Both the position numbers and the translations under genes were made by a program. Below, one piece after another: positions 7,823-36,493 of a stretch of DNA of 64,000 nt. The notes under the pieces were generated by a model. The model had not been told where the DNA came from, ran no database searches, and saw only the letters and a program-made list of their open reading frames with translations. This DNA comes from Brachybacterium faecium DSM 4810 (GTDB lineage: Bacteria; Actinomycetota; Actinomycetes; Actinomycetales; Dermabacteraceae), in NCBI GenBank assembly GCA_000023405.1, contig CP001643.1, positions 248,001-312,000 of the forward strand. The letters run 5' to 3'. Numbering within the stretch: the stretch's first letter is position 1; every line of letters begins with the position of its first letter.

Positions 7823-9199
7823 TCAGAGCGGGGGCAGGCCCAGGTTCTCGCGCAGGGTCGGGCCGGCGTACTCGGCCGGATACACGCCCCGCTCCTGCAG
7901 GCGCGGGATCAGGTGGTCGACGATGTCGTCCAGGCCCGAGGGGATCAGCCAGGGGGTGATGTTCAGACCGTCGATCGCGCCCAGCCGTGCGAACTCCACG
8001 AGGCGCTCCGCGACCGCGTCGTAGCTGCCGGTGAAGGTGCCGCGACGGGCCCCGGCCCGTGCCCGGGCGAACTCGAGGATCGACTGGCCCTTCTCCGCGG
8101 CCTCCTCGCGCCAGGCGCGGGTGAGCTCCTCCGCCTTCGCGAACTGGAAGCCGGCGCCGCGGGTGACCCCGGATTCCACCACCTCCGGCGGCACGTCCGG
8201 CAGCGGGCCGTCCGGGTCGAAGTCGGAGAGGTCCCGGCCCCAGTACTGCTCGAGCAGGGCGATCGCCTGCTCGGGTCCGATCTGCAGGTCTCGCACCCAG
8301 TGCACCTTCTCCTCGGCCTCCGCCTCGGTGGGGGCGAGGATGATCTCCGCGCCGGGCAGGATCTTCACGCTTCCCGGGTCGCGGCCCGCGGCGACGGTGC
8401 GCTCGACGATGGAGCGGCGGAACTCGGCCGCGGTCTCGAGGGTGCCGTGCGGGGAGAAGACGACGTCCGCGCTGCGGGCGGCGAAGTCCTGCCCAGCGGG
8501 GGAGGCCCCGGCCTGGAACAGCACGGGCCGGCCCTGCGCGGAGCGGGGCAGATCGCCCTGGGCGCGCACCGAGTAGTGGGCGCCCTCGTGCGCGATCCGC
8601 TCCCCGCGCCAGTACTGCTCGGCCACCCGCACGAAGGCCCCGGCGTGGGTGTAGCGGTCGGCGTGGTCGAGATAGCCGCCGCGGCGGAAGTTCTCCCCGG
8701 TCCAGGCGTTGTCCGTGGTGACGATGTTCCAGCCGGCGCGGCCCCCGGAGAGCAGGTCCAGGGTCTGCAGCCGCCGCGCGAGGTCCACCGGGTCGTTGTA
8801 GGTGGTGTTCTGCGTGGCGACCAGGCCGATGTTCTCGGTGACGCCGGCGAGCGCGGCGAGCAGGGTCTGCGCGTCCGGCCGACCGGCCACGTCGAGCTCG
8901 AAGGGCACGCCGCGGTGCTCACGCAGCCGCAGCCCCTCGCCGAGGAAGAACGCGGCGAAGCGTCCCCGCTCCGCGGCGCGGGCCAGCGATGCGAAGGACT
9001 CCCACGCCACCTGGTCGCCGCTGGAGGGCAGGCGCCAGATCGTCGAGGAGTTCACACCCTGGAAGAACACGCCGAAGGCGAGCTGCCCGGTGGGGGTGTG
9101 CGCGGGATGGAGCGGATGCTCGGCCGGGCCGGTGGCGAGCGCCGCGGCCTCGGGCGAGAGCGGCGCGTCGTTGCGGAGGATGGAGGGGGCGGTGGTCAT
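7823..9199 (-). CDS. NtaA/SnaA/DszA-type flavin-dependent monooxygenase
   Basis: 458 aa, luciferase-like (LLM) flavin monooxygenase. The long form with LAFGVFFQGVNSSTIWRLP, TLDLLSGGRAGWNIVTT and YTHAGAFVRVAEQYW is characteristic of the NtaA/SnaA/SoxA/DszA group, which uses reduced FMN made by a partner reductase to oxygenate N- or S-containing compounds. Last gene of a five-gene operon starting at 13329 and overlapping the preceding monooxygenase by 4 bp. Together with a PAAT importer this resembles the Bacillus ytmI-type S-alkyl-cysteine/cystine utilisation arrangement (inference). Confidence 0.9.
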   Translation of the reverse strand: MTTAPSILRNDAPLSPEAAALATGPAEHPLHPAHTPTGQLAFGVFFQGVNSSTIWRLPSSGDQVAWESFASLARAAERGRFAAFFLGEGLRLREHRGVPFELDVAGRPDAQTLLAALAGVTENIGLVATQNTTYNDPVDLARRLQTLDLLSGGRAGWNIVTTDNAWTGENFRRGGYLDHADRYTHAGAFVRVAEQYWRGERIAHEGAHYSVRAQGDLPRSAQGRPVLFQAGASPAGQDFAARSADVVFSPHGTLETAAEFRRSIVERTVAAGRDPGSVKILPGAEIILAPTEAEAEEKVHWVRDLQIGPEQAIALLEQYWGRDLSDFDPDGPLPDVPPEVVESGVTRGAGFQFAKAEELTRAWREEAAEKGQSILEFARARAGARRGTFTGSYDAVAERLVEFARLGAIDGLNITPWLIPSGLDDIVDHLIPRLQERGVYPAEYAGPTLRENLGLPPL

Positions 9200-10284
9200 G
9201 CGGACTCCTCAGGGGCGAGGCGGGCGCGGTCGCTGCGCCGCGCGGGATCGAGGCGGAAGGGCACGGGCGGCAGGCCCAGCTGGGAGCGCAGCGATGCGTG
9301 CTGTCGCGGCAGGGGCGCGATGAGGCCGCGGGCCCGCAGATCGGCCGCGAGCTGCGCGACCGTGCCGAGCGGATCCGCCTCCAGGTCCAGGCCCACCAGG
9401 CGCACGAGCCGGACCGTGCCGGCCGTGCCGGTCGCCGCCCCATCGGCCCCGACGGCCGCTGCGCCGTCGGCACGGTCGGCGCCATCGGCTCCGTCGGCCG
9501 CGTCAGTCGTCGCTCCGTCGGCCGCGGCCCTGCCGACCCCGTCGGCGCGGGCGGCCTCGATCCGGGCCGCGAGCTGCTTCGCGCGGGCACCGCCGGAGAC
9601 GTCCAGGTCCAGCACCCGCCCATCGGCCAGCTCGCCGCGCACGCGCTCGCCGACGGCGGCGCGGTCGGTGTCCGCCACCAGCGCGGGCAGCAGCCCCTGC
9701 GGGGAGCGGGGCGTGATCGCGGGGCCGCGCACGGAGAAGGTCTCCGTCTCGATGTCCGTGTACTGCAGGCGCGCGGCGTCCACGTACACGCCGCGCTCGG
9801 TGTCCCGCACCACCGCATCGGGCGCCCAGGAGTCCCACACGCGGCGCGCGGCGACGAGCACGTCGGCCGCCTCCCGCGCCGTGGCCTCCAGCCCCAGCAC
9901 GGTGCGACCCACCGCCGCGGCGACGGCCGGGTCCGTCTCCGCCTGGAGCAGCCAGCCGGCGCGGCCGTGGCTGATGTGGTCGAGGCTCATCAGCTGCGTG
10001 GCCAGGTGGAACGGCTCCACGTAGATCGCGTCGGTGCGCGGCAGCAGACCGATCGTGCTGGTCAGCGGGGCGAGATGGGCGGCGACATGGATCGGGTGCA
10101 GGCCGCCGTCGCTCAGCGTCAGCGCGCCGGCGCCGGCCTCCTCGAGCCCGCGGGCGAGCTCCGCGAGGCCGCCGGGCAGGGAGGGGTCGGTGACCAGGTC
10201 GACGGCGAGGACGGGCAGCGGCCCGGCGGGGTCGGCGCCCCGGGGGCGGGCCGCGGGGACGGGGTTCACGACGGTGGTGCTCAC
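9196..10284 (-). CDS. second LLM flavin-dependent oxidoreductase
   Basis: 362 aa from a GTG start that overlaps the stop of the binding-protein gene (GTGA). LLM-type features: LPVLAVDLVTDPSLPGGLAEL at the N-terminus, HPIHVAAHLAPLTSTIGLLP, EPFHLATQLMSLDHISHGRA and GWLLQAE. An Ala-Asp-Gly-rich insertion of about 45 residues (DNA about 9421-9560) interrupts the C-terminal part and is unlike normal family members. It probably works with the adjacent NtaA-type enzyme on a compound brought in by the operon's transporter. Confidence 0.85.
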   Translation of the reverse strand: MSTTVVNPVPAARPRGADPAGPLPVLAVDLVTDPSLPGGLAELARGLEEAGAGALTLSDGGLHPIHVAAHLAPLTSTIGLLPRTDAIYVEPFHLATQLMSLDHISHGRAGWLLQAETDPAVAAAVGRTVLGLEATAREAADVLVAARRVWDSWAPDAVVRDTERGVYVDAARLQYTDIETETFSVRGPAITPRSPQGLLPALVADTDRAAVGERVRGELADGRVLDLDVSGGARAKQLAARIEAARADGVGRAAADGATTDAADGADGADRADGAAAVGADGAATGTAGTVRLVRLVGLDLEADPLGTVAQLAADLRARGLIAPLPRQHASLRSQLGLPPVPFRLDPARRSDRARLAPEESA

Positions 10285-27413: not shown

Positions 27414-28684
27414 GCTTCCATCTCGAAGGTCTGCGCGGCGGAGCTCCAGCGGGCACCGCCCCCGAGCAGCCGTGCCCGCTCCTCGACACCGATGAGGCCG
27501 TGCCCCGTGGACGGCGCCTGCCCGGCCTCGGCGGTGGCGCCGTCCTCGGTGGCGCCCGGGGACAGCGGGTTCGCGACGGTGAGCACCACCAGGTCCTCGC
27601 GGCGGGAGAGGACCGCGCGCACCGGAGTGCCGGGAGCGTGCTTGGCCGCATTGGTCAGAGCCTCGGAGAGGATGCGCGTCAGCGCCACCACGGTGCCGCG
27701 GCCCAGCTGCTCGAGCGCATCGGGTGCGAGGCCCTGCAGCTCGAGCGTCGCCTCCTGTCCGGCGGCGTGGGCACGGTCCACCGTCTCCTGCAGGGTCGGG
27801 ATGGTGGCCAGCGGCGAGTCGTCCGAGCCGGTGCGCAGGGCCACCAGCACCTCCCGCAGCTCCCGGTTGGCCTGCTGGGCGGCATCGCGCACGGTTCCGG
27901 CGGTGCGACGCAGCGTCTCGGGCGGCAGGTCCTCCCGGTAGGCGATCGCGCCTGCGTGCATCGCGATGGCCGCCAGATGATGGGAGACGCTGTCGTGCAT
28001 GTCCCGCGCCAGCGCCGCCCGCTCCTCGGCGCGCACTCGGGCGACCTCCGCATCGTGGCCGCGCCGCAGGGCGGTCGCCTCGCGCTGGGCCGTCTCCCGT
28101 TCCCGGTCGGCCGAGGCGGCCCGCTCGCGCAGGGAGCGGATCAGCTCATGGCGGGTGCCCACCACCCGGCCGAGCAGGAGCGGCACGAGCGCGCCGAGCA
28201 GCATGACCCCGAGGGTCACGAGGTGGAGCGTGGTGAGCTCCTCATGACGCAGCCGCATCGACAGGTTCTCCCACGCCGTGGTCGTGAGGGTGATCAGCGC
28301 GAGCGCCGTCCCGTCCAGCAGCAGGCGTCGGCGCAGGCCGAGACGGTACAGAGCGATCGCCGAGGCCGGCAGCGCGAAGGAGCTGATCCCCCCGGCCGCG
28401 GCGATCACCAGGTGCAGCACCGCCTGCGCCCGACCCGCGGGCACGAACCGCAGCGGGCCGATCGCGAGGGAGAGCACCAGGCCCACCACCAGGTCGAGCC
28501 CGTGCATCGCCACCAGCGCATCGGGCGGATCGTCCGCGAACTCGACCAGCAGCTCGCCGAAGACGATCAGGAGCAGGAACAGGCCCACGACGAGGCTGAG
28601 GAGCGTCTGCGCGCCGGCGGTCGCCCAGGCACGCGGGGCCCGCACCGACGGGGTGACGGGAGCAGAGGGGGCGGGCGCGGTCAT
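27398..28684 (-). CDS. NarL-type sensor histidine kinase
   Basis: 428 aa from the ATG at 28684. About six N-terminal membrane segments (residues 20-190) with short loops form the input domain, followed by a HisKA_3 dimerisation domain with the phospho-His in ARDMHDSVSHHLAAIAMHAG and an HATPase domain (ALTRILSEALTNAAKHAPG; GHGLIGVEERARLLGGG). It belongs to the LiaS/DesK class that usually senses envelope stress (family knowledge). Divergent from the CPBP protease gene. A remnant of a paralogous kinase lies at 35066-35133. Confidence 0.94.
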   Translation of the reverse strand: MTAPAPSAPVTPSVRAPRAWATAGAQTLLSLVVGLFLLLIVFGELLVEFADDPPDALVAMHGLDLVVGLVLSLAIGPLRFVPAGRAQAVLHLVIAAAGGISSFALPASAIALYRLGLRRRLLLDGTALALITLTTTAWENLSMRLRHEELTTLHLVTLGVMLLGALVPLLLGRVVGTRHELIRSLRERAASADRERETAQREATALRRGHDAEVARVRAEERAALARDMHDSVSHHLAAIAMHAGAIAYREDLPPETLRRTAGTVRDAAQQANRELREVLVALRTGSDDSPLATIPTLQETVDRAHAAGQEATLELQGLAPDALEQLGRGTVVALTRILSEALTNAAKHAPGTPVRAVLSRREDLVVLTVANPLSPGATEDGATAEAGQAPSTGHGLIGVEERARLLGGGARWSSAAQTFEMEAWMPW

Positions 28685-28838
28685 GGGAACAGCGTAGGGA
28701 GCGCTGCGGGGCGGGCGGATCCTCCGAATGGCCGATGCCGCGCGGAGGAGGCAGGAGCGGTGGGGTCCGCCGTCCGGTCCGGCAGCGCGCGCCCCTCGGC
28801 GGATGCGCGGGGCCCGGCATGTGCCCGAGGATCGTGCC

Positions 28839-29801
28839 ATGACCTGGACCTCCACCCTCTCCCACCCGCCCGCACCCGCCCCGGAGATGCTGCCCCGGCC
28901 GGTCGAGACCGATGCCGTCGCCTTCCACCGGCTGCCGCGGGCTCTGCCGCACCGCAGCTACTGGTGGCGGCCGCTGGTCACCCTCGCCGTGTCCGCGGCG
29001 GTGTACGTGGTGATGCTGCTGCAGATGTTCGGGCTGGTGCTGGTGCTGTCCCTGGCGCTGCCGGGGGCGGAGCCCAGCGCCGAGCTGCTCGACCCGCTGA
29101 ACCCGATCGACCAGCTGCTCATGCTCGGCATGCTCGCGCTGATGCTGCCCGCGGTGCTGGTGGGCACGCTCGCCGGTTACGGCCGGGCCGGGATCGCCCA
29201 CTCGGTGGCCGGCCGCTTCCGCTGGGGTCTGATGGGCCGGGTCGCGCTGGTGGTGCTGCCGCTGTATCTGGTGGTGAACGTGGGCGTGAACCTGGTGCTG
29301 GCGCGCGAGGAGATCGTGGTGCCGCCGCTGACCCTCCCCGTGGTGCTCGCCTGGGGGATCGCGCTCGTGCTCGGCCCGCTGCAGGCGGCCGGGGAGGAGT
29401 ACGTGTTCCGGGTGCTGCCGATGCAGGCCGTGGGCACCTGGCTGCGCCTGCCGCTGCTGGGCATCGTGCTGCCCGTGCCGCTGTTCGTGCTGGGGCACGG
29501 CTACGAACCGCTGGGCCAGGTCGAGATCGCGCTCTTCGCCCTGCTCATGGGTCTGCTCGCCTGGAAGACGGGCGGCATCGAGATCCCGGTGCTGCTGCAC
29601 GTGGCGAACAACTGGACCCTCTTCGCGATCGCGCCGCTGGTGCCCGGAGCTCTCGAGCAGGGCGAGGTGACCGTCTCCGGGTTCCTGCTCGCCGCCGTTC
29701 CCACCCTGCTGTGCACCGCCGGCATCTGGTGGTGGTTCTCCCGCCGTGAGAACCTGCGGCTGTGGGAGCCGCGGCGCGGCGACGGCCGACGGGGCGCATG
29801 A
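28839..29801 (+). CDS. CPBP family intramembrane metalloprotease
   Basis: 320 aa, ATG at 28839. Eight or so membrane segments. CPBP (CAAX protease/bacteriocin-processing) motifs are complete: Glu186-Glu187 with Arg191 in AGEEYVFRVLP, His220 in LFVLGHGY, and His254 with Asn in LLHVANNWT. The enzyme would cleave within the membrane; substrates are unknown. It is divergent from the two-component system and probably controlled by it. A paralogue at 35386-36417 lacks these residues. Confidence 0.9.
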   Translation: MTWTSTLSHPPAPAPEMLPRPVETDAVAFHRLPRALPHRSYWWRPLVTLAVSAAVYVVMLLQMFGLVLVLSLALPGAEPSAELLDPLNPIDQLLMLGMLALMLPAVLVGTLAGYGRAGIAHSVAGRFRWGLMGRVALVVLPLYLVVNVGVNLVLAREEIVVPPLTLPVVLAWGIALVLGPLQAAGEEYVFRVLPMQAVGTWLRLPLLGIVLPVPLFVLGHGYEPLGQVEIALFALLMGLLAWKTGGIEIPVLLHVANNWTLFAIAPLVPGALEQGEVTVSGFLLAAVPTLLCTAGIWWWFSRRENLRLWEPRRGDGRRGA

Positions 29802-29912
29802 CCTGCGCCCGGGAGGTATCCCGCACCGTGTCACGTCCGTGGCCCCGCAGGCGTCGACGGGGCAGGAGCCGCCGGCCGACCGGGCCGCCGGCGCACCGGG
29901 AAGGACCACGCC

Positions 29913-30803
29913 ATGGAGGCACCCGCTCCGCACCCGCCGCACTCGCCGACGCCCCCGCGGCACGACCCCGACGAGCTCGCCCGCGACCTCGAGCGGGAGC
30001 GTCCGCGCCTGGTCGCCCTCGCGACCCGGGTGCTCGGCGACCCGGACGAGGCACAGGACATCGTCCAGCAGGCCTGGCTGCGGCTGGCCGCGGCCGACCG
30101 TGACATCGAGAACCTCCCGGCCTGGCTCACCACGGTCACCACCCGGCTGTGCCTGGACCGGCTGCGCCGCCGCACCGCCGTCCCCGAGGCGGAGATCGCC
30201 CTCGAGGCGGCCGCCCCCGACCCGGCGGAGGATGTCGCCCTCGCCGACACCGTGGGCGCGGCCCTGCAGCTGGTGCTGGAGCGGCTGAGCCCCAACGAGC
30301 GCGTCGCCTTCGTGATGCACGACAGCTTCGGCGTCGAGTTCTCCACCATCGCCGCGGCGCTGGGCACCACCGCGCAGAACGCCCGGAAGCTCGCCTCCCG
30401 CGCCCGGGCCAAGGTCGCCCAGCCCCGTCCGGAGGACGCGCTGGCCGACTGGGAGGTGGTCGACGCGTTCATGGCCGCCGCCCGCGGCGGGGACTTCACC
30501 CGCCTGGTGCAGCTGCTCGCTCCCGACGCGGTGGTGCGCGCCGACGCCGACGCCATCGCGACCGGCACCCCGGAGGCGATCGAGGGCCGCGAGGACATCG
30601 CGAGCTTCTTCAACGGCGCGGCGCATGCCGCTCTGCCGGTCAGCGTCGACGGCCGCCCCGGCTCGGCCTGGTACCACCGCGGCCAGGCCAGGGTGCTGTT
30701 CGACTTCATGGTCACCGGCGGGTGCGTCGCCCGCATCGACTTCCGTGCCGCTCCCGAGGTGATCGCCCAGGTGGTGCGCCGCGACGGCGCCGCCCCGCGA
30801 TGA
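29913..30803 (+). CDS. ECF sigma factor with SnoaL-like C-terminal domain (SigJ type)
   Basis: 296 aa. Region 2 (DEAQDIVQQAWLRLAAADRD; PAWLTTVTTRLCLDRLRR) and region 4 (ERLSPNERVAFVMHDSFGVE; TIAAALGTTAQNARKLASRA) are complete. They are followed by a C-terminal extension of about 115 residues with the SnoaL-like fold (EVVDAFMAAARGGDFTRLVQ). Such sigma factors regulate themselves through the extension and lack a classical anti-sigma factor (family knowledge). The small DUF1059-like gene 90 bp downstream is a likely co-transcribed partner. Confidence 0.9.
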   Translation: MEAPAPHPPHSPTPPRHDPDELARDLERERPRLVALATRVLGDPDEAQDIVQQAWLRLAAADRDIENLPAWLTTVTTRLCLDRLRRRTAVPEAEIALEAAAPDPAEDVALADTVGAALQLVLERLSPNERVAFVMHDSFGVEFSTIAAALGTTAQNARKLASRARAKVAQPRPEDALADWEVVDAFMAAARGGDFTRLVQLLAPDAVVRADADAIATGTPEAIEGREDIASFFNGAAHAALPVSVDGRPGSAWYHRGQARVLFDFMVTGGCVARIDFRAAPEVIAQVVRRDGAAPR

Positions 30804-30893
30804 CTTCCAGCACCGGTGTCACATTCGCGGACCCGCGTGCGTCGACACAGTGACAGCAGTTCCCCACCGATTCCGTCACGGAAGGACGAGACG

Positions 30894-31130
30894 ATGAAGA
30901 CCATGACCTGCCAGCAGCTGGGCGGACCCTGCGACCTCGGCCACCGCGGCCAGAGCGCCGACGAGGTCATCAAGGCCCAGGACAAGCACCTCCGAGCAGC
31001 CGTCAAGGCCGGCGACGAGACCCACCGCCCGGCCCGCCAGGAGATGAGGTCCCGCTGGATGCACCCCAAGCAGTCGCTGGGCTGGTACAACGACGTGAAG
31101 TCCGCCTTCGCGGAGCTGCCCGAGGACTGA
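30894..31130 (+). CDS. DUF1059-like small protein
   Basis: 78 aa. The start MKTMTCQQLGGPCDLGHRGQ matches the typical beginning of a widespread small family (MKTMTCxQLGGxCD...) with two N-terminal Cys, followed by EMRSRWMHPKQSLGWYNDVK near the end. AAGGACGAG sits upstream of the ATG. Function unknown; the two Cys could bind metal. It follows the SigJ-type sigma factor gene. Confidence 0.8.
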   Translation: MKTMTCQQLGGPCDLGHRGQSADEVIKAQDKHLRAAVKAGDETHRPARQEMRSRWMHPKQSLGWYNDVKSAFAELPED

Positions 31131-31156
31131 CCCGGGCCGTCGGACGGCGCAGGATC

Positions 31157-31340: not shown

Positions 31341-31445
31341 CGGCGGGAGCGCTGCTCCTCGCGTCGATCGCCGGTATCTGCATCACCAACGTCACGGGAA
31401 GCCGGAAGCATCCCGCGGTAGTCGATGGCGCTGTGGGTGGCAGCG
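31341..31445 (+). pseudogene. decayed duplicate of the 58-aa membrane protein gene
   Basis: About 100 bp matches 26378-26478 with scattered changes (for example GAGCGCTGCTC, GCGTCGATCGCCGG and GATGGCGCTGTGGG are shared). A one-base deletion after GTCACGG breaks the frame, and no start codon remains. It lies 15 bp beyond palindrome copy 4, so palindrome and gene were duplicated together. Confidence 0.7.
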
Positions 31446-31488
31446 CGACAGGTGGTCTGCTGGTCCAGACGCGTCAACGCCGGGCGAT

Positions 31489-31517
31489 TTGAGACTTCGG
31501 ACACCAATAGGTAGAGT
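31489..31517 (+). promoter_or_regulatory. sigma-70-like promoter of the secreted-protein/ABC cassette
   Basis: TTGAGA (31489-31494), 17-bp spacer, TAGAGT (31512-31517). Transcription would start near 31524, directly before four 11-bp repeats, giving a leader of about 115 nt before the first gene at 31640. The stretch is clearly AT-richer than the flanking DNA. Confidence 0.6.
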
Positions 31518-31527
31518 GTCAGCGCGC

Positions 31528-31571
31528 ACCCAGTCTTTACCCAGCCTTCACCCAGTCTTCACCCAGTCAAT
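31528..31571 (+). repeat. four 11-bp direct repeats (iterons) in the leader
   Basis: Units ACCCAGTCTTT, ACCCAGCCTTC, ACCCAGTCTTC and ACCCAGTCAAT are contiguous and in exact 11-bp phase, so all lie on one face of the helix. They sit at about +5 to +48 of the predicted transcript. Cooperative binding of a regulator, or an RNA-level role, is possible. No regulator gene is in the cassette. Confidence 0.8.
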
Positions 31572-31639
31572 CGATCGCTGATTGCTCGGCGTGGCTGGCA
31601 GTGGGTCGCAACGATCGATGCTGGCACGAAAGGGCTGAC

Positions 31640-32038
31640 ATGACGAACTCCCTGGTTCGGCGATGCGCGCTCGCGTTTGCGGGTGCGGCGCTGGTGCTCT
31701 CGGGAGCGGGTGCTTACGCGGGTACCAGCTACGAGAGCTACAGCACGACGGTGGGGAAGCTGAATGGCAATGGATACACCTCGTATCAGAAGAAGAGCGC
31801 GACTGGTGCTGAGGGGACGCTGAAGAGCTCGAGCGTCGGGGGTAGCCACGTCGTTGATGCGAGGATGCAGGCGCAGTCCGGAGGGGGCACCGGCGCGTGG
31901 ACGCGTGGTGTGAACGACGGCGAGACCAGGACGCTGAAGAATTCTGTCGGTAAGGCAGGCAATGCTCGGGTCCAGTTCAGCACGAACTGGAACACGCGTG
32001 TCGACGTTCAAGTCACCGGTTCTTGGAGGAGCAACTGA
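31640..32038 (+). CDS. secreted protein of unknown function, cassette gene 1
   Basis: 132 aa. Signal peptide MTNSLVRRCALAFAGAALVL with likely cleavage after AGAYA, leaving about 104 residues. The mature part has no Cys, is rich in Ser, Gly, Thr and Asn, and has alternating patterns typical of beta structure (NGYTSYQKKSATGAEGTLKS; ARVQFSTNWNTRVDVQVTGS). AAGGGCTGAC precedes the ATG. It is the first gene of an operon with two membrane proteins and an ABC ATPase. It might be a toxin, bacteriocin or surface protein; no family recognised. Codon use is less GC-biased than that of the neighbours. Confidence 0.8.
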   Translation: MTNSLVRRCALAFAGAALVLSGAGAYAGTSYESYSTTVGKLNGNGYTSYQKKSATGAEGTLKSSSVGGSHVVDARMQAQSGGGTGAWTRGVNDGETRTLKNSVGKAGNARVQFSTNWNTRVDVQVTGSWRSN

Positions 32039-32046
32039 ACTGGGCG

Positions 32047-32865
32047 ATGAGGGCTCCTTCTCGCACTTTACGGACCGATCCGGCGCGGGGAGGACCCCTC
32101 GCAGTCCTCAGCACTCGCGCGCTGCCTTCTCTGGTAGTAGCGCTGCTGGTCGTGGCGATTCCGCCGGTGTTCGGTATATGGGCCGCACCCTCGTACGTGA
32201 TCTTCGATCCTGAGGATCATTTCGCGTTCTCGCTGAGCAACCTGCTCCCGCTGGTGTTCAGCTTCCTCGCCGCACTCCTCTACGTGCCGGTGATCCTCCA
32301 GGAGACTCGACGCTCCGGGTGGATGCCCATCGTGGCCAGGCGGGGCATGCGCGGCTATCTGCGCACTCATCTGGTCCGTTCCACGTCCGTCGGTGCGGTG
32401 ACCTTCGGCGGGGCCATCGCGGTGGCCGCATGCTTGTCCCTGGTGATCCTTCCCGGCACGGGCATGGTGACCTACTATCCGGAGGACCGGGTGGTCCCCT
32501 TCTCCGAACAGATGACCTTCACCCAGCTCGCCCACTACGGGACTGCGGTGTACGTGGCCTTCATGGTTCTCTGGGTCGCCGTGCACGGTGCCCTGATCAC
32601 GTCGCTCTGTGCGGTCGTCGCCCTGCATCTGCCCAATCCGTTCCTCGCGCTCCTCGCGGTCCCGGGATCGCTCTTCCTCCTCGACACCGTGCTCGCGCTG
32701 GTGGGGCTCGAGGAGTTCGCGACCGACAACGCCGCGCTGCCGACCGCGCTGGCACAGGGGAGCGCGCTCCCACCCGTGGTGACCACCGTGATGCTTGCGG
32801 GTCTGCTCGTCGCGGTCGAGGGGCGAGCGCTGCGTGCGCCCGTGCCGCCAGCAGCAATGCGATGA
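32047..32865 (+). CDS. polytopic membrane protein, cassette gene 2
   Basis: 272 aa from the ATG at 32047 (MRAPSRTLRTDPARGGPLAV), with GGAGGAG about 14 nt upstream; a TTG at 32023 overlapping gene 1 is an alternative. Six predicted membrane segments, for example LPSLVVALLVVAIPPVFGIW, LPLVFSFLAALLYVPVI, FGGAIAVAACLSLVILPG and YVAFMVLWVAVHGALI. No family recognised; the arrangement fits an ABC-2-like permease half. Its stop overlaps the start of gene 3 (ATGA). Confidence 0.82.
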   Translation: MRAPSRTLRTDPARGGPLAVLSTRALPSLVVALLVVAIPPVFGIWAAPSYVIFDPEDHFAFSLSNLLPLVFSFLAALLYVPVILQETRRSGWMPIVARRGMRGYLRTHLVRSTSVGAVTFGGAIAVAACLSLVILPGTGMVTYYPEDRVVPFSEQMTFTQLAHYGTAVYVAFMVLWVAVHGALITSLCAVVALHLPNPFLALLAVPGSLFLLDTVLALVGLEEFATDNAALPTALAQGSALPPVVTTVMLAGLLVAVEGRALRAPVPPAAMR

Positions 32866-34367
32866 GCCGTCGTGAGCCTTCAGTGTCATCCCCGACGACA
32901 CGCAACGTGCGGCGAGCCGACCTTCTGACGCGCTGCCTCCCTCCCGCGGGACTGCTGCGACTGACGGTGCCGACTGCGCTTGCAGGTTTCCTGGTGTGCG
33001 GTGCCTGGAGCATTCTCGATCGGCGAGTGCCGGACGACGCCTCCTTCTGGGAAGCGGTGATCGTGAGGTCCCAGGACCCTTACCTGATGATCTACCTCAT
33101 GTGGCCAGCACTCGTGGTCATCGCACTGTCCTCGCAGCGCACGGCGCTATCCGATGCGCACCTCGTCCGCCGTGGATCCCTCGCATGCGCGGCGATCGCA
33201 GAGGCCGTGCGCGGCGGCATGGTGGGAGTCGCGGCGGCAGCTGGCATGGTTCTCGCCGGAGCGCTCGTCTCCTTGTCGGCTCTCGGCTCCGGGGGAGGCT
33301 GGGGTGCGTTCACCATAAGGTCCGTGCGCGGGGAGGGGTCACCTGTCCTAGCGGCATATGCCACCGAGAACGTGCACCCCGTCACCGCGTCGCTCAGCCC
33401 TGTGCTCGCCATCGGACTGGTCGTAGCCACCCTCACCACCTGGAGCTCGCTGCTCAGCCGGCGGCTCGCCGGAGCGGTCCGCGTGGCTGGGGCGCTCAGC
33501 GTCATCCTCCCTCCGATCCTCTTCCGCGCACCGGTGCAAGAGGGACGCCTCGAGGCGATAGCTCTTCTGCTCCCGTTCCGGACGGCGGCCGCCGGGCTCT
33601 CCGTGTGGTCGATGCTCCTCGCCGCGGGCGTCGTCGTGATCGTGGGGCTATGCGCCGCCCGTGGCGTCGGGAGCCCGCAGCTGCTGCGCGAGCTGTGGCG
33701 CGCACCCCTCGTCCGCTGGTTCACTCTCGCGCTGGTGCTCATCGCGTTGGCGACCCTCGGCTCGTCTCCCGGATCGTCAGTCGCGGACTCCGCGTTCCAC
33801 GGTGCGACTCCCGACGGTTTCTCCGCGATTCCTTGGGCGATCACCGTGATCTGCTGGCAGGGCCTCGCGCTTGTCGTGCTGTTGCGCTGGTCGGGATGGG
33901 TGCTGCCGCGCATCCCGATTCTCGCCCTGCGGCACGGCTCGGCCGCAGCGGTGCTGGTGCGCGAGCTCCGCCGCGACGTGCTGACGGTTCTCCTGGCTGT
34001 ACCCGCGCTCCTGGCGTCCGGGGCGCTGATCTCACTCCTGCTCGGTGGGTCACCTCCGGGGTGGGGCATGCTGGGAACGCTCTGGGGCGGGGGAGCCGCC
34101 AGTACCCTCTCGACAGTGCTGATCGCGCTGTGCGCCACGTGGATCACCCGGCGCGACACGGCAGCAGCGACTGTCCTGGTGATCCTGACCGTCTCGACGC
34201 TTCCGCTGGTCAACCCTGTATGGCCTGCACCGGTCGCGAGCGGCGGACTGGGAGCGTGGCAGCAGCCCACGACCGCTGCGCTCACGGCGAGCACAGTCGT
34301 CGTCTTCGGGATGCTGCTGCTCCTCCTCGCACGTCTTTTCCCGCGGTTCGAGATCGTCGCCCGATGA
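32862..34367 (+). CDS. polytopic membrane protein, cassette gene 3
   Basis: 501 aa with about twelve membrane segments. The start codon at 32862 overlaps the stop of gene 2 and its stop overlaps the start of the ATPase gene, so the three are translationally coupled. The sequence reads as two similar halves of about six segments each, compatible with an ABC-2-type permease duplicated within one chain. No known family recognised. Visible motifs are only hydrophobic; no enzymatic residues stand out. Confidence 0.82.
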   Translation: MSRREPSVSSPTTRNVRRADLLTRCLPPAGLLRLTVPTALAGFLVCGAWSILDRRVPDDASFWEAVIVRSQDPYLMIYLMWPALVVIALSSQRTALSDAHLVRRGSLACAAIAEAVRGGMVGVAAAAGMVLAGALVSLSALGSGGGWGAFTIRSVRGEGSPVLAAYATENVHPVTASLSPVLAIGLVVATLTTWSSLLSRRLAGAVRVAGALSVILPPILFRAPVQEGRLEAIALLLPFRTAAAGLSVWSMLLAAGVVVIVGLCAARGVGSPQLLRELWRAPLVRWFTLALVLIALATLGSSPGSSVADSAFHGATPDGFSAIPWAITVICWQGLALVVLLRWSGWVLPRIPILALRHGSAAAVLVRELRRDVLTVLLAVPALLASGALISLLLGGSPPGWGMLGTLWGGGAASTLSTVLIALCATWITRRDTAAATVLVILTVSTLPLVNPVWPAPVASGGLGAWQQPTTAALTASTVVVFGMLLLLLARLFPRFEIVAR

Positions 34368-35053
34368 ACCCTTCCGAACCGAGATCGTCCCCATCCAGAA
34401 AGCAGTCGATGAACACTCCCGCGATCGTCCTCCGCGACGTCTCCAAGAAGTTCCGCGAGCTCACCCTGTTCGAGAACGCCTCGATGCAGATCAGGTCCGG
34501 GTCGATAACGGGGCTACAGGGCCCCAACGGCTCCGGGAAGTCTGTCCTCTTCAAGATGATCGTCGGGTTGAACAGACCCGATCAGGGGGTCATCGAGCTG
34601 GAACCGTCGCTGCAGGGCGACGGGCGGGACTTTCCGACCGACGTGGGGATCGTCATCGACCGGCCCGCCTATATCGGCGGAATGACAGGGCTTGGGAATC
34701 TCGTCGATCTGGCCCGCATCCGCCGCCTGATCACCGAGGGCGAGGCCGCGGCCGCGATGGAGAGAGTCGGTCTGGATCCAGAAGCCCCGCAGAAGGTCCG
34801 CGACTACTCGCTGGGCATGAAGCAGAAGCTCTCCATCGCCCAGGCCTTCATGGAAGGACAGCGCCTGCTCCTGCTGGACGAAGCGTTCAACGGCCTTGAT
34901 GAACCCAGCGTCCATCGGATCCGTGTCCTGTTGGCGGAGCTGCGGGAGGAGGGGCGGACCATCCTGCTGACCAGTCACAACCAGGGCGATATCGATGCGG
35001 TCTGTGATGACGTCTGGCGCGTCGAGCAGCAGGGCCTCGTGCCCGTCAGCTGA
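34364..35053 (+). CDS. ABC transporter ATP-binding protein, cassette gene 4
   Basis: 229 aa; an internal ATG at 34409 is an alternative start. Walker A GPNGSGKSV, signature-region YSLGMKQKLSIAQAF, Walker B LLLLDEAFNGLDEPS and switch His ILLTSHNQGD are present. SLGMKQK replacing LSGGQ is typical of ATPases with ABC-2-type permeases in lantibiotic immunity and bacitracin export systems. The Q-loop region IVIDRPAYIGGMTGLGNLVD also fits that group. It powers the two membrane proteins upstream, probably exporting or expelling the secreted protein or a related compound. Confidence 0.92.
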   Translation: MNPSEPRSSPSRKQSMNTPAIVLRDVSKKFRELTLFENASMQIRSGSITGLQGPNGSGKSVLFKMIVGLNRPDQGVIELEPSLQGDGRDFPTDVGIVIDRPAYIGGMTGLGNLVDLARIRRLITEGEAAAAMERVGLDPEAPQKVRDYSLGMKQKLSIAQAFMEGQRLLLLDEAFNGLDEPSVHRIRVLLAELREEGRTILLTSHNQGDIDAVCDDVWRVEQQGLVPVS

Positions 35054-35065
35054 CGGGCGAAATCG

Positions 35066-35133
35066 GTCCGTTCCCGCAGCGAGGAGAGCAGCTCGTGGCG
35101 AGTGCCCACCACGTGCCCCATCAGCAGCGGATC
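35066..35133 (-). pseudogene. remnant of a histidine kinase gene
   Basis: Minus strand encodes PLLMGHVVGTRHELLSSLRE, matching PLLLGRVVGTRHELIRSLRE of the sensor kinase at 27398-28684 over about 24 residues, in the segment just before the dimerisation helix. Nothing else of the kinase remains. It begins right after the end of the cassette ATPase gene. The following stretch to 35385 contains two short minus-strand reading frames without recognisable similarity and the promoter region of the CPBP-like gene. Confidence 0.75.
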
Positions 35134-35385
35134 TGGGTGAGCGCCACCATTGGCCCGGGGCCCGCGATCGCGGCTCGCCGGACGGCCCGGTGGGCGAGCT
35201 CCTCGAGATCGTGGTACCCCATGTGAGTGAATGCCTCCACCACGGTTGCCCTCGGGCAGCTGCTCCTGCACGAACTCGCTCGTGGAGGCACCGAGGTGAG
35301 AGAACTGCTCGAGCACCCCGTCGGTCTCCGACCAGTAGCTCATCGCATCGATACTCCCGAACGCGCGCTCTACAGTGGGGGCGCC

Positions 35386-36417
35386 ATGACACCAGACCCG
35401 CCCCTCCCCGCCGCCCCCTTCCACCGCATGGCGACGCTGCGCCCCGCCTGGGCCGGCCGGCTCCGGCCGCCGCTGACCCTCCTCGCCTCGTTCATCGCCT
35501 ACGTGGTGCTGATCTCGGTGGTGCTGGTGCTGACGATCCTCGCGCTCGCGCTCGCGCCCGGCGTGAACGTCGCCATCGGTGTGACCAGCGGTGATCCCAC
35601 CAGCGCGTTGGACGTCACGCTCGCCCTCGCGATGGGCGCGATGTGGCTGCCCGCCGGGATCATCGGGGTGCGCTTCGGAGGCTGGCGCCCGCTCGGCACC
35701 GCCTGGTCGGTCACGGCTCGGTGGCGCCGCCCGCTGCTGAGGTCGCTGGGGCCCTGGGGCGTCGCGATGGGCGCCGTGGTGGTCGCCGCCGCCGCGCTCG
35801 CCGGTGCGGTCACCGGGGCCGACGGCGTCGCGGCCGCGGATTCCGGCGCGTCGGTGCCGCGGCTGCTGCTGGTGGGCGTCGTCGTGCTGGTCCTGGGCCC
35901 GCTGCAGGCGGCCGGGCTGGAGCTGACGCTGCGCGGCGCGGTGATGCAGGCGCTCGGCAGCTGGCTGCGCAGTCCGCTGCCGGCGATGCTCGCCGCGAGC
36001 GCCGTGATGCTGATCGGCCGCGAGCTCAGCGTCGCGGTGACGCTGCCGGCACTGACCCTGGGCCTGGCCTCGGCCGTGCTGGCCTGGAAGAGCGGGGGCT
36101 TGGAGCTGTCGATCCTGCTGGTCACGACCGTCACCGTCGCCTCCGGCCTGGTCTCCGCTCTCGGCGCGGGCACCGGGGCCGGATCCGGTGCCGCCGCGCT
36201 GAACGCCGCAGCCGCCGCACCGGGCACCTCCTCGGCCGCTCTCGCGACCGCTGCCTCGGAGCAGGCGGCGCTGACCGGGGGAATCACCGCGACGGCGGCG
36301 CTGCTGGTGGTCACCGTGGTGCTGGTGATGCGGATCAGCTCCCGGGAGGGGGTGCGCCTGCTCGAGCCGGTCACCCGCCCCGCCGGCGAGCCCGCCCCCG
36401 CCCCGGTGCCCTACTGA
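35386..36417 (+). CDS. CPBP-like membrane protein lacking catalytic residues
   Basis: 343 aa, clearly a paralogue of the protease at 28839-29801: GPLQAAGLELTLRGAVMQAL against GPLQAAGEEYVFRVLPMQAV, and LAWKSGGLELSILL against LAWKTGGIEIPVLL. The EExxxR motif is Leu178-Glu179..Arg183, the second-motif His is Arg212 (LIGREL), and the HVANN motif is VTTVT. It is therefore unlikely to be a protease. An Ala-rich insertion (about 265-300) is present near the C-terminus. It may be a regulatory pseudoenzyme or a gene on the way to loss. Confidence 0.83.
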   Translation: MTPDPPLPAAPFHRMATLRPAWAGRLRPPLTLLASFIAYVVLISVVLVLTILALALAPGVNVAIGVTSGDPTSALDVTLALAMGAMWLPAGIIGVRFGGWRPLGTAWSVTARWRRPLLRSLGPWGVAMGAVVVAAAALAGAVTGADGVAAADSGASVPRLLLVGVVVLVLGPLQAAGLELTLRGAVMQALGSWLRSPLPAMLAASAVMLIGRELSVAVTLPALTLGLASAVLAWKSGGLELSILLVTTVTVASGLVSALGAGTGAGSGAAALNAAAAAPGTSSAALATAASEQAALTGGITATAALLVVTVVLVMRISSREGVRLLEPVTRPAGEPAPAPVPY

Positions 36418-36493
36418 CCCCGCACCGGGCATTGCCGGCCCCGCCGGCCCTGGGCCGATGCTGACCCTGCGCCCGGCCCTGCCGTTGCACGAG

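Follow-up and report, generated by a model that had tools for sequence, protein, structure and literature searches.

What is the function of a four-gene operon in Brachybacterium faecium DSM 4810 that joins a small secreted protein to an ATP-binding cassette (ABC) transporter, and that is low in guanine and cytosine (GC)? The operon occupies positions 31640–35053 of the window, a term used here for the whole analysed stretch of 64,000 nucleotides (GenBank assembly GCA_000023405.1, contig CP001643.1, positions 248,001 to 312,000). All four genes lie on the forward strand and encode, in order, a secreted beta-rich protein and candidate bacteriocin (31640–32038; 132 amino acids, mature part 105), permease 1 (32047–32865; 272 amino acids, about seven hydrophobic segments, six to seven in the family), permease 2 (32862–34367; 501 amino acids, about 11 hydrophobic segments, eight to 12 in the family), and an ABC ATPase with an SLGMKQK signature (34364–35053; 229 amino acids). 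This is the layout of co-directional genes with ATGA overlaps described in an initial annotation of the DNA. The two overlaps connect permease 1 to permease 2 (32862–32865) and permease 2 to the ATPase (34364–34367), and an in-frame TTG at 32023 is an alternative possible start of permease 1.

On balance, the operon probably encodes a Sec-secreted bacteriocin-like protein together with its immunity transporter. This reading builds on the gene order, the linkage of the genes, a secretion-type N-terminus recognised by eye, spread on plasmids, and broken secreted genes beside intact transporters. It is favoured because of this linkage, the asymmetric loss of the secreted gene, the small plasmids that recall lactococcin 972 (Lcn972), the best model of the ATPase, and the substitution rates in one pair of loci, L009 and L010. 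The initial annotation had proposed a bacteriocin-like or competition system; linkage, remnants, small plasmids, and the parallel with Lcn972 lend it genomic support, and the activity itself is a prediction.

The four genes might have been a chance assemblage never repeated elsewhere. This is not the case, because all 16 loci found via the secreted protein have an adjacent gene for a multi-transmembrane protein. An ATPase match is present at 15 of them, as a 98-amino-acid fragment only in L044, while the sixteenth locus, L060, stops at a contig end. The gene-neighbourhood search suggested in the initial annotation therefore had a positive outcome, with the secreted gene and a similar ATPase recurring together in other genomes. 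These 16 loci, which leave out a short secreted-gene remnant in genome G114, are the fair sample. The complete survey covers 23 neighbourhoods, of which 20 have a secreted gene (19 open, and L061 interrupted by a TGA within its signal peptide), and includes L008, L009, L010, and L012, which came from the ATPase search. Among the 20, a multi-transmembrane neighbour is found in every case and an ATPase match in 19; near-identical copies (L030–L032, L009/L010, L041–L043, L058/L059) reduce them to about 14 lineages. The L058 and L059 copies of a distant cassette lie near both ends of contig C1 of genome G989 and are 99.8% identical over 13 kb. These two copies, both counted among the 16, may be one locus, that is, an assembly artefact of redundant contig ends, or a recent duplication.

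The gene order of the window recurs in the actinobacterial loci, in the Priestia plasmid pHJT3_2, and in genome G820 of the Bacillota_A. In three large Priestia plasmids and in the Planococcus plasmid pPS15-2, the secreted gene is divergent from, yet adjoins, the transporter genes, and in G989 the order is secreted protein, permease, ATPase, permease. Linkage thus persists despite changed gene order. In the distant members L058–L060, permease 1 is weakly recognisable, with expectation values (E) of 2e-8 to 3e-15, and permease 2 is not recognised by the profile.

A close ATPase, defined as a match in the host's order with E of at most 1e-40, is present in 10 of 396 genomes of the order, and six of the ten are without an intact secreted gene; the intact cases are G000, G012, G037, and G041. 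In three of the ten, a broken secreted gene lies beside open genes for both permeases and the ATPase. Only the last 38 residues of the secreted protein match in G114 (L007), as a 3' remnant; the gene of G038 (L011) has an internal deletion and a frameshift relative to the intact L033, from a different genome of the same genus; and that of G196 (L061) carries a TGA within the signal peptide. Judged from their sequences, these three cases resemble immunity genes outliving their bacteriocin. In G040, G141, and G310, no secreted gene was found in the 11–14 kb fetched; a permease 1 homologue is encoded in all three, and a permease 2 homologue in G141 and G310. Outside the order, L014 contains both permeases and the ATPase, and a secreted gene was found neither nearby nor elsewhere in that genome.

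Transporters that exist without the secreted protein also fit a defensive module, in which a secreted decoy or binding protein intercepts a foreign antimicrobial extracellularly and the ABC transporter pumps out that same compound. LanI/LanFEG and Bce-type protection are precedents. The lantibiotic-protection ATPases are the nearest to the present ATPase, and a two-component system, typical of antibiotic-sensing modules, stands directly upstream of the cassette in G820. However, neither a lipobox nor a wall anchor was seen by eye, and the secreted protein would diffuse away; none of the 16 loci has the secreted protein without a neighbouring permease; and small plasmids with the cassette as their only recognisable accessory genes suit a bacteriocin better. 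A defensive role is therefore considered unlikely.

Relatives of the secreted protein, each next to a homologous or similar transporter, are scattered over Actinomycetota, Bacillota_A, and plasmids of Priestia and Planococcus. The secreted gene was detected in six of 47 genomes of the host's taxonomic family and in six of 396 of its order (own genome included in both counts; the six of the order include one remnant and one gene interrupted by a stop), in one of 396 genomes of a phylum sample, namely the own genome, and in three of 199 Bacillota_A genomes. Among 72,556 plasmid records, five carry it, four from Priestia and one from Planococcus. The cassette resides on small plasmids in both genera, the MOBQ plasmid pHJT3_2 of Priestia (9971 bp) and pPS15-2 of Planococcus (9775 bp).

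Substitution rates were compared between closely related loci. In the pair L009/L010, the ratio of nonsynonymous to synonymous rates (dN/dS) is 1.03 for the secreted gene (about 14 nonsynonymous and four synonymous changes) and 0.05–0.15 for the transporter genes (Fisher p 3e-5 for the contrast). The start of the L009 secreted gene is uncertain, because the ATG used by L010 is absent there. The pair L041/L043 offers too few changes for a comparison. Divergence of the secreted protein and of the ATPase correlates with a Spearman coefficient of 0.21 (p 0.16, 45 non-independent pairs), so no co-divergence is shown.

The secreted protein itself begins with a Sec-type signal peptide that ends AYA-G at residue 27/28, as judged by eye. 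It had been described as free of cysteine; this holds for the mature part, whereas the full precursor has one cysteine (C9) in the signal peptide. Ten relatives can be aligned over their length, with nine invariant positions and a conserved order of the signal peptide followed by STTV, NGxGYTxYQxK, VGGxYxVDAR, RVQFSND, and VQVSGxWRSN blocks. Searches at E up to 1 against Pfam and NCBIfam, and at E up to 0.1 against PHROGs and PADLOC, produced no match, and a sequence search of solved structures gave nothing meaningful (best E 0.13). An AlphaFold2 model from five sequences has eight strands with a mean predicted local distance difference test score (pLDDT) of 64, in agreement at modest confidence with the beta pattern anticipated from the sequence; the mature part alone gave a worse model (mean pLDDT 57). 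Foldseek found nothing at E 0.001 or better for the model, the best matches being nodavirus P-domains (8e-3, template modelling (TM) score 0.30), and VIA-align placed GOLD domains at the top (Z 8.8), ahead of numerous unrelated beta folds. The structure of lactococcin 972 is absent among the matches listed by Foldseek and VIA-align, which excludes nothing. The profile and Foldseek searches proposed in the initial annotation thus place the 132-amino-acid protein in no well-described family, and the model suggests that its mature part is probably a beta sandwich. A viral origin was also considered and dropped, since none of 225 pattern-matching stretches in viral contigs was confirmed and phage records yielded only weak partial matches (E 0.2) to Citrobacter tail fibres.

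Such a fold could also belong to a protein with a structural or adhesive role on the cell surface or outside the cell, serving in biofilms, appendages or carbohydrate binding, with the transporter acting in its biogenesis or having an unrelated function. Among many other folds, carbohydrate-binding modules and subunits of spore appendages show weak similarity to the beta-rich model. These matches are at noise level (the Foldseek and VIA-align values given above), an ABC exporter would be superfluous for a Sec substrate, and a structural role leaves the remnants beside intact transporters and the carriage on plasmids unexplained. This explanation is regarded as quite unlikely.

The closest parallel to a bacteriocin with ABC immunity is the Lcn972/streptococcin B group (PF09683), in which a Sec-type secreted beta-rich bacteriocin is encoded first and is followed by genes for a membrane protein and an ABC ATPase. 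The signal peptide expected of this family is present here by eye. Carriage on small plasmids and bacteriocin-defective strains that keep their immunity genes are further likenesses. Lactococcin 972 is encoded on the 11-kb plasmid pBL1 with the putative ABC immunity genes orf2-orf3 (PMC4055356), and pneumococcal strains without a functional streptococcin B peptide retain the immunity genes (PMC11796350).

The two systems also differ. The mature part comprises 105 amino acids here and 66 in lactococcin 972, and the single large membrane protein of the Lcn972 locus L063 (a 671-amino-acid open reading frame (ORF)) has two permeases as its counterpart here. The ABC transporter is adjacent in the present cassette, but its ATPase is not of the Lcn972 type, scoring 76.7 bits against the TIGR03608 cut-off of 254.85. 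PF09683 matched none of nine members of the secreted family at E up to 5, a range in which HMMER filters drop most matches above 0.1, and nothing in the own genome. In a profile comparison with Lcn972, built from three sequences only, the signal peptide alone aligned, with a probability of 12.6%. The secreted protein is therefore not a detectable member of the Lcn972 family, and that it works like Lcn972 is plausible by analogy. PF09683 genes are present in three of 46 genomes of the same taxonomic family (L050, L051, L052).

The best NCBIfam model of the ATPase is the lantibiotic-protection model TIGR03740, with 132.3 bits against a cut-off of 309.75. LanFEG transporters share with the cassette this best curated match and the combination of an ATPase with two permease genes; they differ in that the present ATPase is below the curated cut-off and in its partner, a beta-rich protein of the Sec-secreted type. 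By eye, no enzyme for lanthipeptide modification was recognised among ORFs of at least 70 amino acids at 28–39 kb, a search that did not extend to precursor-sized ORFs. The initial annotation had remarked on the lack of processing enzymes; none was seen by eye in the neighbourhoods listed, which were not all scanned. Permease 1 has a sub-threshold Pfam match to cytochrome b561 (20.7 bits, cut-off 30.1). Within permease 2, one half resembles the other (89–91% probability over 65–75 columns), and neither half gave a match to the other permeases of L072 (Priestia plasmid p-LAD3); by sequence, permease 2 may have arisen by tandem fusion of a pair of permease units.

From these comparisons a mechanism can be proposed. 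The first product would be exported by Sec and cleaved by signal peptidase after AYA. The cysteine-free mature protein of 105 amino acids would then act extracellularly on the envelope of competing Gram-positive bacteria, and by analogy with Lcn972 it might target a cell-wall precursor, for instance lipid II. Permease 1, permease 2, and the ATPase would together form an ABC transporter resembling lantibiotic-protection transporters, which would protect the producer by clearing the bacteriocin, alone or in a complex, from its membrane. Killing activity, immunity, and target are thus predicted features of the system.

Several observations weigh against this interpretation. Its mechanism is drawn by analogy, because sequence comparison does not identify the secreted protein as lactococcin 972. 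The fold matches are generic beta sandwiches, so the assignment stops at a beta-rich, probably sandwich, fold. Remnant-free transporters, with 38–49% ATPase identity, may be other cassette types and not losses, and transporters lacking a secreted gene would likewise occur if their role were to ward off foreign antimicrobials. Plasmid pPS15-2 has an open secreted gene and an ATPase frame that is interrupted in the record; either the sequence is in error there or the putative immunity has truly been lost. Finally, the pair L030/L032 shows the opposite trend to L009/L010, with a dN/dS of 0.09 for the secreted gene and 0.18–0.39 for the transporter (p 0.12); the ratios are inconsistent between pairs and yield no general rule.

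The window cassette was described as lacking any regulator. This is correct for the window but not for the family as a whole: in G820, a response regulator and a histidine kinase lie directly upstream of the cassette (L057, 3215–5374), and in G844, a membrane protein without a Pfam match and a gene with a Spo0B-type kinase domain precede it (L060, 1288–2420), a pair that we take to be agr-like in look. These neighbours would suit a signalling module in which the secreted protein, whole or in part, serves as the cue and its processed fragment is taken up or released by the transporter. Conservation, however, spans the whole mature protein and not a short peptide, and no regulator is found in the window cassette or, by eye, beside most relatives, so that a signalling function appears highly unlikely.

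The operon's own control region contains a sigma-70-like promoter, TTGAGA-17-TAGAGT, on the forward strand at 31489–31517. The initial annotation had noted a clear promoter; the element agrees with the consensus at nine of 12 positions, and one such match was counted against 0.3 expected in shuffled sequence. Between the promoter and the first gene, about four head-to-tail 11-bp repeats of an ACCCAGYCTTY-like sequence were found by eye and by repeat comparison (31528–31570, forward strand), including three overlapping 22-nucleotide copies with 11-bp spacing that are 68–100% alike. They are a possible regulator site; similar repeats were not seen by eye upstream of the cassette in 11 relatives.

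That the cassette was horizontally acquired, as first suspected, is well supported by the lowest GC of the window, the lack of a match at the site in six genus relatives, a near-empty site in G021, the patchy distribution, and the plasmid copies. The GC plot proposed earlier shows that the 3.5 kb from 31501 have a GC of 0.664, the minimum of the window for stretches of this length (mean 0.728, standard deviation (SD) 0.019). The four genes in order have a GC of 0.624, 0.668, 0.692, and 0.633, compared with 0.731 (SD 0.027) for 43 crudely called window genes, and a GC at third codon positions (GC3) of 0.75–0.835, compared with 0.914 (SD 0.065) in the window. Low GC3 is not unique to the cassette, as two other ORFs lie below all four genes and three more within their range.

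The insertion site was examined by blastn (E at most 1e-8) of window 27.0–38.5 kb against 11–18 kb stretches of six genus relatives, in which 31438–35063 has no match. In G021, the matches to 29829–31131 and 35411–36418 are only 638 bp apart, compared with 4279 bp here. This is the only clean, almost empty site, because neighbouring genes are rearranged in the other five relatives. Right after the ATPase stop, 35064–35150 is likely a remnant of a histidine-kinase gene: 67 bp of it are 78% identical to the kinase gene present elsewhere in the window (28117–28183), and the kinase regions of five relatives match at 80–84%. A second copy of the kinase gene may have been lost to the insertion. Two genes for Rce1-like CPBP membrane proteases (28728–29801 and 35386–36417, the second below the Pfam cut-off) flank the cassette region and adjoin each other in G003, G030, and G037.

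The transporter has relatives beyond the family of this secreted protein. The first permeases of L068 (Melissococcus plasmid) and L072 match permease 1 in hhalign with 96% and 94.4% probability, respectively, and these similarities make the transporter part of a wider group that includes DUF2712 and lipoprotein-linked cassettes. A DUF2712-DUF2705-WxPxxD-DUF2705-ATPase set is encoded on p-LAD3, and a similar set in Priestia sp. J2; the present ATPase is 37% identical to the ATPase of a DUF2712 cassette. A DUF2712 match is also found in B. subtilis, in a protein that is presumably YybN. The yybN operon is described as being of unknown function, low in GC, presumably horizontally acquired, and bound by Rok (PMC2978689, PMC11841835). 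Cassettes of this type in Bacilli share with the operon a secreted protein of similar size, permeases with a homologous permease 1 (probability 94%), and an ATPase of the same group. They differ in having three separate permeases, compared with two here, and secreted proteins without detectable homology.

A similar C-terminal pattern had suggested that the secreted protein might be a DUF2712 protein, which profiles did not support. PF10916 (DUF2712) matched none of nine members of the secreted family, and the score of 11.1 against three DUF2712 proteins lies within column shuffles (n=40, mean 10.0, maximum 16.1); full-length comparison with the Priestia DUF2712 protein, signal peptide included, gave 26%. 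DUF2712 was found in none of 149 Bacillota_A genomes, and B. subtilis alone matched among 14 controls. The open-licence PubMed Central (PMC) literature yielded nothing on DUF2712, on DUF2705 with bacteriocin, or on yybNMLKJ, and titles and abstract starts of its articles on Brachybacterium bacteriocins or ABC transporters, or on Priestia, did not mention the present cassette.

In Lachnoclostridium (L015), Adlercreutzia (L017), and Niallia (L070), a related transporter is accompanied by an added lipoprotein-like protein. These cassettes also combine a small secreted protein, two permeases, and an ATPase of the same group (39–45% identity). They differ in the extra protein of about 380–430 amino acids (a lipoprotein by eye, with DUF6034 shown only for L017), in a weak similarity of permease 1 (22–60%, L015 and L017), and in their secreted proteins, for which homology to the present one was not supported by profile comparison. 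Other small, cysteine-containing proteins with apparent signal peptides are encoded near transporters in L009 (6937–7332), L061 (11759–12268), and L125 (3437–3859); those of L009 and L061 are not similar to the present secreted family. In L041, a 345-amino-acid protein without a Pfam match, secreted by eye, is encoded 3' of the secreted gene (8635–9672), and the two other large Priestia plasmids have annotated genes in the equivalent position. The ATPase was also considered as a component of anti-phage defence: it matched 17 PADLOC models (E up to 0.1; best mad3, 90 bits), which were taken to reflect shared P-loop motifs, and the three other proteins had no match there.

The cassette is a real, horizontally spread two-part system, and most likely a new family within a known kind of system, the bacteriocin with ABC immunity. 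More tentatively, it could belong, as a single lineage, to a broad and largely undescribed class of antagonism systems in Actinomycetota and Bacillota, in which the ABC immunity (ATPase and first permease) is constant and the Sec-secreted beta-rich weapon is variable, having been replaced or having diverged beyond recognition; the Rok-silenced yybN operon of B. subtilis would be another lineage. The family represents probable Sec-dependent bacteriocins that are unnamed in the libraries searched, occur in two or more phyla, and move on small plasmids. If confirmed, its members would be candidate antimicrobials without cysteines or modification enzymes, and the pair of toxin and transporter would provide a simple model for ABC immunity to folded proteins. 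As the shared transporter ties the cassette to secreted-protein cassettes of other Gram-positive bacteria, possibly including the orphan operon of B. subtilis, the function of these cassettes becomes testable as well.

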